This document shows positions 19,268 to 21,205 of a stretch of DNA of 32,138 nt, in pieces. Source of the DNA: Elusimicrobiaceae bacterium (GTDB lineage: Bacteria; Elusimicrobiota; Elusimicrobia; Elusimicrobiales; Elusimicrobiaceae); assembly GCA_017528825.1 (NCBI GenBank), contig JAFXOI010000010.1, forward strand, positions 1 to 32,138, written 5' to 3'. The notes below the pieces were generated by a model. The model was not told the origin of the DNA. It made no database searches and saw only the letters and a program-made list of their open reading frames with translations. Positions within the stretch are counted from its first letter, which is position 1. Every line of letters starts with the position of its first letter. The translations under genes and the position numbers were made by a program.

Positions 19268-20437
19268 CTAGCATTTCGGTGCATTAGATGGGCAATAAGG
19301 CCCTTCACAACACCCTCCGTCGTAAATTACACTGTAATAGGTACCACCACTTGCCAAACAAGTTCCCGGTGCATTAGCAACACACTTGCCCCCAACCCCA
19401 ATCCTACTTCCGCGGCAGGTTTCATGAGCGGCTACTTGTGCTACGCAGCTGGCACCATCAGTAAATGTACTATATCTACAACCACCAACTTCTGCTATAC
19501 ATTGACTTCCTGAAGTATAAGTACCACTAGTACAAGATGAGCTGTCATATTGTGCAATACATTTTGATTCATTTTTATATGTCTTTTCCCCGTCGCCATA
19601 TGCCCGATTAGAGTAATGAATCGCTCCATCGAAGACAGAATTATTACACTGACCTCTACAAATACTTCCCGGATTATATATAGAGTTGTTACATCCTCCA
19701 CCTCCTCCCTTATCAGAACATTCTCCTCCTTCTTTTACATCCAAATAAGCACAACCACCCCATTGACCAACACATTTAGCTCCTTCTTCAATTACTAATC
19801 TATTATTTTCTGTTCCAACATTTCCGTTATACCCGCAAAAGCCATCCTTATAGGGCATGCCGTTGGCTTTACAGCGTTCTTCATTGGTTTTATAACATTG
19901 TGTTTGTTTATTGGACCATACCCGGCTGACGCCGTCACACGTGGCTTTATCTACCGCTTGGTCTAATAAATACTGTGTGTAACCATCTTCTGTCGTGCTT
20001 AGTTCCTCTCCATTAAGAAGCTTACTGCATAGTCTTGTACCACGCCCGTTTTCCCCGTCGTTAGATTCGCAATATAAGTGTCCGGCCCGTATGGTGTTTT
20101 CATCCAAATAACTAGCTAAACGTACGGTAGGCATTTTATTATTTATGGCACGCACTACGTTGGCAGTGCCGTCATCATTAATGGTTTCTATGGTATATTG
20201 CACATCACCACTGGGCATACTGACATCCAAGTTTTCCATATTAGCGGTATAAAGACCGCTACTCATTCTAATGGCTTCTTCGGCATCTTTTATCGCTTTG
20301 GCTCCGGGGAGCATAGTACTCCAATGGGTTTTATCTACGGCCCCTTGGTACATAGGGATAGCTATAGCCGATAGTACTCCGATAATGAGTACCACTACTA
20401 ATAATTCTACGAGGGTAAACCCCTTTTTTATTTGCAT
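19268..20437 (-). CDS. Cys-rich repeat pilin-like protein (complete)
   Basis: A 389-residue prepilin-type protein and the only complete member of the family in the window. Leader and helix are MQIKKG|FTLVELLVVVLIIG with Glu at +5. Residues 45-130 share the block LDVSMP...PTVRLASYLDEN with the gene at 2-1051. A C..SR.WSNKQTQCYK region follows. From about 200 onward there are repeated cysteine pairs 11 apart (CNNSIYNPGSIC, CTSGTYTSGSQC, CRYSTFTDGASC, CRGSRIGVGGKC), one unit expanded by about 18 residues, and a terminal GGCCEGPYCPSNAPKC cluster. It should be exported and anchored through the pilin helix; repeat function is unknown. AAAAAGGAG lies 6 bases before the ATG. The gene ends at its own terminator, and the upstream leader is unusually rich in hairpins (20460-20700). 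Confidence 0.9.
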   Translation of the reverse strand: MQIKKGFTLVELLVVVLIIGVLSAIAIPMYQGAVDKTHWSTMLPGAKAIKDAEEAIRMSSGLYTANMENLDVSMPSGDVQYTIETINDDGTANVVRAINNKMPTVRLASYLDENTIRAGHLYCESNDGENGRGTRLCSKLLNGEELSTTEDGYTQYLLDQAVDKATCDGVSRVWSNKQTQCYKTNEERCKANGMPYKDGFCGYNGNVGTENNRLVIEEGAKCVGQWGGCAYLDVKEGGECSDKGGGGGCNNSIYNPGSICRGQCNNSVFDGAIHYSNRAYGDGEKTYKNESKCIAQYDSSSCTSGTYTSGSQCIAEVGGCRYSTFTDGASCVAQVAAHETCRGSRIGVGGKCVANAPGTCLASGGTYYSVIYDGGCCEGPYCPSNAPKC

Positions 20438-20471
20438 ATATAACTCCTTTTTCTCGGGCCCGTAACAGCAT

Positions 20472-20666
20472 AAAAAACGGCCGCTGTTTCAGAGCCGAAA
20501 CCAGCGACCCCAAAAACAACAGCCGTAGTTTGCCGTACCCGAAGGTACGGCAAACACTCGGCACAAAACAAAGAGCTCATGACTTCCCTTTATTTTGTGC
20601 CTAGAACGACTGCTTTTGGACTGGTTTCTTGCTAGGAATTACCTAGCTGTCCGTATCCATATACGG
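20472..20666 (-). ncRNA. Palindrome-rich region, candidate structured leader RNA
   Basis: Intergenic stretch of about 300 bases before the Cys-rich pilin, on its strand. It contains a 12-bp stem closed by a TTCG tetraloop (20528-20539 / 20544-20555), a 13-bp stem with one mismatch (20561-20573 / 20588-20600), an enclosing pair GAAACCAG / CTGGTTTC (20497-20504 / 20621-20628), and small hairpins at 20631-20647 and 20651-20666. A hairpin followed by six T on the minus strand (T run at 20472-20477) could terminate an RNA before the pilin start. A C(UUCG)G tetraloop argues for function as RNA from the minus strand. No known RNA family is recognised. Confidence 0.4.
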
Positions 20667-20743
20667 TTCCAAAAACAGATTAAATTTATTTTTAAGTAGC
20701 GCCTTGCTTGTGCGCAAAATTCTCCTTTTTAGTCTTTATGAAA

Positions 20744-21205
20744 TTAGTTATTACTGCCGCGGCGGCCGATATCCACCGGTATGGGCACATCCCCTAGCGG
20801 TGTTTCAAAATAAGCAGTACCTGTGATGTGATAATCTACGCTGGCGCTACCCATACTCACCAGCCCCACTAGTTTGCTGCCCAGTTTAAGGGTAGGAATA
20901 TCAATATGGGCCTTTTGATTTTTGGTGCTGCCGGCTTCCACGCGGATATTTTCTAAAGTGAATTGGCCTACCGGTGTATCATTCATGGTTACATTACCGA
21001 CAAATTTTTTAATAGAAGCATCTGTTTTCTTGTTTAAGTTGGTGATGGCAATAATTAAATCTACCCCTAAAGAGGTGATGTTAAAATCAGCCATTTCTAC
21101 CGCTACGACTGAATATTTGCAGTTGGCAAAGGCCTTGGCTTCTTCAATTGTTTTACATGCTCCCAAACAACAAAGTACAACTAGCAGACATATTATTTTT
21201 TTCAT
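20744..21205 (-). CDS. Lipoprotein with LEA14/WHy-like domain
   Basis: A 153-residue lipoprotein. The signal sequence MKKIICLLVVLCCLGAC ends in an LGAC lipobox (Cys17 would be lipidated). The mature part (VVAVEMADFNITSLGVDLIIAITNLNKK...) has the alternating beta pattern of LEA14/water-stress WHy domains, which form a small beta sandwich. It should be anchored in the inner or outer membrane on the periplasmic side; function in bacteria is poorly known and is not claimed here. GAGGAG lies 6 bases before the ATG. It is divergent from pepT, and the two share the AT palindrome at 21234-21243. It reads toward the structured region before the pilin, with no clear terminator of its own directly after the stop. 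Confidence 0.75.
   Translation of the reverse strand: MKKIICLLVVLCCLGACKTIEEAKAFANCKYSVVAVEMADFNITSLGVDLIIAITNLNKKTDASIKKFVGNVTMNDTPVGQFTLENIRVEAGSTKNQKAHIDIPTLKLGSKLVGLVSMGSASVDYHITGTAYFETPLGDVPIPVDIGRRGSNN

Follow-up and report, generated by a model that had tools for sequence, protein, structure and literature searches.

A recurrent structured RNA, mostly ahead of type IV pilin genes in an Elusimicrobiaceae genome, as a candidate two-state transcription attenuator

A stretch of 32,138 nucleotides from an Elusimicrobiaceae bacterium (assembly GCA_017528825.1, contig JAFXOI010000010.1; hereafter the window) was analysed for a cluster of hairpins on its minus strand, directly ahead of a pilin-like gene. 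Comparison at the sequence level identified this cluster as one of about 49 diverged copies of one structured RNA, which stand mostly before type IV pilin genes. The comparison showed a conserved RNA with helices P1 to P5, a canonical intrinsic terminator and a long-range helix that runs from the segment before strand S' (the 3' side of P1) to the terminator loop. Overall, our analysis suggests, with a probability of roughly 0.6, that the element is a cis-acting two-state leader RNA serving as a transcription attenuator for the downstream gene, usually one for a type IV pilin. The exchange between the two states is what we infer from sequence and energy models.

The leader region lies between a lipoprotein-like gene (20744-21205) and the pilin-like gene. 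The first-pass annotation, made from the letters of the window, had described several inverted repeats between 20460 and 20700, and every feature it named was located there on the minus strand. Its 12-bp stem with a C(TTCG)G loop corresponds to hairpin P5, and its hairpin followed by six T residues ahead of the pilin ribosome-binding site corresponds to the terminator stem (20478-20525) and T-run. The 8-bp pair that was thought to enclose a multibranch fold is present at 20497-20504/20621-20628; it is not an ordinary multibranch closure and is instead the key long-range helix. The same strand holds the 11-nt pair P1 and the imperfect 17-nt hairpin P4. The T-run is about 21 nt from the pilin Shine-Dalgarno sequence (SD) and 34 nt from its ATG (20437). 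Folding of the minus strand from 20460 to 20720 gave -106.4 kcal/mol, compared with -70 ± 5 kcal/mol in dinucleotide shuffles (z -7.3, 0 of 200), and extension of the leader to the ATG gave z -8.5. The plus strand also folded well (z -5.4), which is expected because the region is made of inverted repeats. Homology delimited a core of 20472-20690, and the functionally relevant region extends beyond this core to the pilin start codon.

A blastn search with the region against its own genome found about 40 places, with 67-79% identity between copies over the longer matches. A total of 38 genomic stretches plus the window gave 40 copies, of which three were not parsed and 37 were aligned. When the genome of 1.53 Mb was searched with a covariance model (R1) built from these 37 copies, 75 matches reached E <= 0.1; 26 were removed as antisense or as partial overlaps of other matches and 49 were kept, among them four weak matches (27-42 bits) and two truncated at contig ends. 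A pilin N-methylation motif was found 0-400 nt downstream on the same strand for 39 of the 49 copies, against a random expectation of about 1.5% (arithmetic from 113 pilins in 1.53 Mb). Seen from the other side, 39 of the 113 pilin motifs in the genome are preceded by the RNA. The number of pilin-like N-methylation motifs above the cut-off is similarly given as 106 and 111 for two congeners, G025 and G065. RNA copy number does not track pilin number, G025 having two RNA copies.

Analysis of the 37-copy alignment revealed that 91.0% of cells are paired and that two-sided changes occur in 57 of the 80 pairs. Two-sided changes numbered 458, compared with 142.6 ± 10.4 after shuffling, and pairing dropped to 38-46% in slid controls. 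P1 is near-invariant. An alignment of relatives' copies (76 distinct rows from other genomes) gave 94.0% of cells paired and two-sided changes in 65 of 71 pairs, figures biased in favour of the structure since this alignment was fitted to it. Compensatory changes across homologues, the check that had been proposed for the region, are thus abundant. From 5' to 3' on the minus strand the parts of the leader follow the order S, P2, P3, PKa, S', P4, P5, T5, PKb, T3, T-run, tail, SD and ATG (Table 1). The UUCG tetraloop of P5 had been read as a sign of selection at the RNA level; the P5 loop varies among the 37 copies, and the UUCG loop was rejected as the selected feature.

The two sides of the long-range helix, PKa and PKb, were sought in fixed segments, the alignment not being fitted to their pairing. 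Complementarity among the 37 own copies was 23.9 within a copy versus 11.6 ± 2.4 between copies. The PKb of the same copy was the best partner in the row for 36 of the 37, all 37 helices differ, and the helix of one copy (L010) was mis-parsed in this test. The same comparison gave 23.3 (self) versus 11.1 (cross) for 54 other copies of the own family, with the own partner strictly best in 45, and 24.3 versus 10.8 for 45 copies of a distant family, strictly best in 36; ten of the 114 distinct copies in this wider test were unparsed. Selection for mutually distinct helix sequences, a kind of address code, was considered and rejected: nearest-neighbour distances were 2.41 versus 2.97 ± 0.14 in column shuffles, that is, smaller and not larger.

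An intrinsic terminator between leader and gene, on the same strand, is predicted from sequence and covariation. As read from the alignment, S' and the bases that follow it resemble T3 and can pair with T5. In the proposed OFF state, S would pair with S' (P1), T5 would thereby be free for T3, and RNA polymerase would stop at the T-run. In the proposed ON state, PKa and S' would pair with PKb and T5 to give a single helix, about 20 bp long, that encloses P4 and P5, and where this helix formed the terminator could not form. The tail made by read-through would favour the ON state in one of two ways: a second S' sequence would pair with the freed S (type A), or, as in the window, strand B would pair with the freed T3 (type B). 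The trigger for the change from OFF to ON could be a small molecule, a protein, a tRNA or a ribosome.

Mean predicted energies over 36 of the 37 own copies (L010 excluded, OFF state computed without pseudoknot energy) were -93.6 kcal/mol for P1 plus terminator and -87.0 kcal/mol for the antiterminator, so that in the short RNA the antiterminator is predicted to lie 6.6 ± 4.1 kcal/mol above OFF. Unconstrained folding of RNAs terminated at the T-run gave terminator plus P1 in 92 of 103 cases. With the tail extended to the start codon, antiterminators were predicted in 45 of the 103, 40 of which were flips, versus 19.4 expected from shuffled tails. Native tails shifted the balance to the antiterminator by 4.0 to 7.5 kcal/mol (group means) versus 1.7 to 4.0 kcal/mol for shuffled tails, and the larger shift towards ON with native tails held over 98 copies, 13 others being left out (Wilcoxon p 7e-10). 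The window copy flips to the antiterminator with its native tail and with none of ten shuffled tails. The minimum free energy (MFE) fold of its full-length leader, in which S' pairs with T5, contains the helix PKa-S'/T5-PKb and a second hairpin formed by T3 and strand B. A second S'-like sequence before the SD was found in 21 of 35, 12 of 20 and 10 of 10 pilin-linked copies of three groups, versus 5.1, 1.0 and 2.2 expected; overall, 43 of the 65 pilin-linked copies tested have such a tail sequence, able to capture S, versus about 8 expected. Pairing of a strand B is weak as a general rule (14 of 111 copies by a strict ungapped score, 17 of 98 by a looser one), and the strand-B helix of the window was missed by this score, being visible only in the full fold.

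Several results weigh against a two-state leader. P1 and the lower terminator stem scarcely vary, so covariation is unable to prove the strand exchange itself. Shuffled tails also move the balance, with roughly half the effect of native ones, and terminator plus P1 is still the MFE fold with the tail in 43 of 103 copies. The second S'-like sequence is present in only 11 of 46 non-pilin copies (about 4 expected), and the genes behind these copies are so varied that no single signal is obvious. Moreover, the long-range helix and the terminator might be present together, in a static pseudoknot.

This last arrangement is the main rival, though we regard it as unlikely: the long-range helix would tie the terminator loop into the P1 junction, termination or RNA stability would be constitutive, and there would be no antiterminator. 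The long-range helix, P1 and the terminator use separate bases and are all conserved, which is compatible with a static fold, as is the predominance of P1 plus terminator among the short RNAs. However, 9-11 bp of pseudoknot pairing would fill the whole terminator loop and would probably be sterically strained, the exchanged fold is favoured more by native than by shuffled tails, and it is the predicted full-length structure of the window copy. An attenuating pilin leader, the first of three options raised in the first-pass annotation, is clearly the best supported of them, given the compensatory changes, the pilin-linked position and the competing terminator and antiterminator folds.

The second of those options, an independent small RNA, keeps a small probability because a terminated RNA of about 220-280 nt would be made. 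Such an RNA would have a promoter and a terminator of its own and act in trans, and it would merely accompany pilin genes. Besides the canonical terminator, many copies have a -10-like site 28-75 nt ahead of S: 34 of 44 own copies (7.4 expected), 27 of 52 in the same family (8.4 expected) and 26 of 45 in the distant family (12.0 expected). The palindromic P4 loops could also provide contacts between RNAs. Against this, 39 of the 49 own copies have a strand-specific position directly before the SD of a gene, and pilin-linked copies carry S-complementary sequence past the terminator. The window copy has no promoter-like site within the 110 nt examined upstream and starts soon after the stop of the upstream gene, so its leader is probably transcribed from the promoter of that gene.

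An SD-like element precedes S by 30-80 nt in 27 of the 52 same-family copies, against 1.2 expected; it is present in 10 of the 44 own copies and in one of 45 from the distant family. Counterparts of the window element at 20722-20727 occur in L050, L053, L058 and others. Inspection of the copies by eye showed no leader peptide whose start codon is consistent; the window itself could encode a putative open reading frame (ORF) of 24 codons with a TTG start in the leader.

A translational switch, in which the tail would hide the SD and strand S would free it, appears improbable to a still greater degree. Long SD-complementary segments occur in some copies (L054, L087, L108 and L112), yet the SD-pairing score was no better than shuffles for most of 127 records and the window showed none. 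The third option raised earlier, a structured mobile repeat (resembling miniature inverted-repeat transposable elements or repetitive extragenic palindromes) landing near pilins, fits the many copies per genome and their widely varying number among congeners, but is very improbable and unsupported as a present-day function, since the diverged copies keep pairing and orientation to genes, one copy is shared by five congeners, in each of them ahead of the same gene fragment of 468 aa (L058, L059, L064, L065 and L066), and instead of near-identical recent copies inserted without regard to gene class, 39 of 49 precede one class.

Table 1. Positions of the leader parts and neighbouring features in the window, with the basis of each assignment.
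Feature	Position	Strand	Basis or observation
Strand S, 5' side of P1, CTGTTTTTGGA	20668..20678	-	First ten bases invariant in the 37-copy alignment
Hairpin P2	20651..20666	-	Two-sided changes in 6 of 6 pairs
Hairpin P3	20631..20647	-	Two-sided changes in 7 of 8 pairs
PKa, 5' side of the long-range helix	20620..20628	-	Partner PKb in all correctly parsed copies; 37 differing sequences
Strand S', 3' side of P1, proposed antiterminator strand	20610..20620	-	100% paired with S (37 copies), only G-U changes
Hairpin P4, palindrome-centred loop	20557..20604	-	Two-sided changes in 14 of 16 pairs; loop classes
Hairpin P5 (UUCG hairpin)	20528..20555	-	Two-sided changes in 11 of 12 pairs; loop varies
Strand T5, 5' side of the terminator stem	20506..20525	-	Folding and covariation
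PKb, terminator loop and 3' side of the long-range helix	20497..20505	-	Within-copy complementarity, covariation
Strand T3, 3' side of the terminator stem	20478..20496	-	Two-sided changes in 10 of 19 terminator pairs (37 copies), 18 of 19 (relatives)
T-run of the predicted intrinsic terminator	20472..20477	-	TTTT or longer invariant here in 37 copies
Tail strand B, partner of T3 in the predicted full-length fold	20457..20469	-	Window fold flips with tail
Pilin Shine-Dalgarno sequence	20444..20450	-	Read from sequence
Pilin-like gene, 389 aa, N-terminal methylation motif	19268..20437	-	PF07963, E 5.5e-7
AAGGAG element (20722-20727) and small 5' hairpin	20699..20727	-	Read from sequence; counterparts in other copies

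Search of the phylum, with scoring limited to six places in each genome, revealed matches at E <= 0.001 in 97 of 340 genomes and in 8 of 100 genera. The matching genomes comprise 64 of 66 in the genus of the window, 18 of 18 in genus g5, one of three in genus g2 and 14 in a distant family (f21). In 23 of the matching genomes that were searched more closely, 0 to 25 copies each were found at E <= 1e-6. Scanning of named genomes with an exact three-part pattern gave 82 stretches, all under the titles Elusimicrobium, Elusimicrobiaceae, Elusimicrobiales, Elusimicrobia, Elusimicrobiota or Endomicrobia except two titled 'uncultured bacterium'; the same pattern had no match in viral contigs. Besides pilins, the first genes behind relatives' copies include those for outer-membrane beta-barrels, a sulfatase, glycosyltransferases, polysaccharide enzymes and a zinc-ribbon protein, and behind some copies restriction-modification proteins (GmrSD, a type III methylase, an N6/N4 methylase and an HsdR-like protein). 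A total of 18 hand-chosen non-pilin proteins were scanned, and 16 gave one or more Pfam families at E <= 0.01, with part of these hits below the curated cut-off. Surface and defence genes recur behind the copies, and a common signal for them is a lead only.

The apical loops of P4 (20574-20587 in the window) fall into a small number of classes (TAATTA, TGATCC, TTATAA, TCATGA, TAGCTC and TTCGAA), each with four self-complementary bases at its centre. A self-complementary centre was found in 120 of 128 pattern-fitting loops, 156 having been examined and 28 not fitting the pattern, with five antisense matches excluded from these counts. The sequences of these loops make a kissing dimer possible. 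A wider proposal, speculative and with little probability in our view, is a surface-gene regulon: dozens of copies per genome of one RNA device, built as a strand-exchange chain (S, S', T5, T3 and tail strand) and possibly dimerising through the palindromic P4 loops, would switch genes group by group according to loop class; these would be the pilin paralogues and, among relatives, also genes for the outer membrane, polysaccharides and restriction.

Comparison with Rfam 15, including c-di-GMP-I/II (cyclic diguanylate, c-di-GMP), T-box, Termite-flg and Termite-leu, yielded just two tRNAs in the whole window at the gathering cut-off. Inside the region, two matches to microRNA models at chance level appeared at E <= 10, and at E <= 0.5 eight related loci gave three sub-threshold matches, none of them to the element itself. 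A known Rfam family was therefore ruled out as its identity, covariance-model scores being under the gathering cut-off. No description of the RNA was found in open-access literature, as covered by titles and the starts of abstracts, most subscription papers being outside this coverage. The RNA family is new and unlisted in Rfam; its kind, an attenuator-like leader, is known, and it is unusually amplified.

Folding predicts for the element a terminator and an antiterminator that exclude each other, as in intrinsic-terminator attenuators with exchange of these two forms. It differs in the hypervariable long-range helix within the antiterminator, in tail strands that would favour the ON fold, and in that a consistent leader-peptide start codon was not seen by eye.

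The functionally nearest system that we encountered is the c-di-GMP riboswitch before pilA1 of Clostridioides difficile. In the passages of PMC6366702 that concern it, this major type IV pilin gene has a class II c-di-GMP riboswitch leader, Cdi-2-4, whose terminator decides read-through. Both leaders have a terminator ahead of a type IV pilin gene; by the same passages C. difficile has four class II copies, whereas the present RNA has about 49, another architecture and no riboswitch match in Rfam. The genome of the window encodes three GGDEF domains, so c-di-GMP is a possible signal. The Termite-flg and Termite-leu motifs (RF01729 and RF01730), given in part of PMC2864571 as structured RNAs of the termite hindgut only, are likewise structured RNAs, from a habitat shared with Endomicrobia; neither model matches the window or the eight relatives' loci, and by word search the main text of PMC2864571 lacks the words pilin, pili and Elusimicrob.

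Through these results a gut phylum that has received little study gains a structured RNA family, and there is a concrete, testable handle on pilin choice in a genome of 1.5 Mb with over a hundred pilin-like motifs. Tens of natural variants in one genome, each with a different helix, make the switching model unusually easy to test.

The 153-aa lipoprotein-like ORF ahead of the leader matched no Pfam family at E <= 0.01. In-frame N-terminal extensions ahead of the prepilin motif, like inserted repeats, were observed in the pilins behind L009, L010, L021, L029, L039, L102, L103, L108, L110, L116 and L159. Three copies from genus g81 (L090, L152 and L153) represent a compact variant in which, by eye, one hairpin seems to stand in place of P4 and P5 and the logic of S/S' and the terminator loop is retained.
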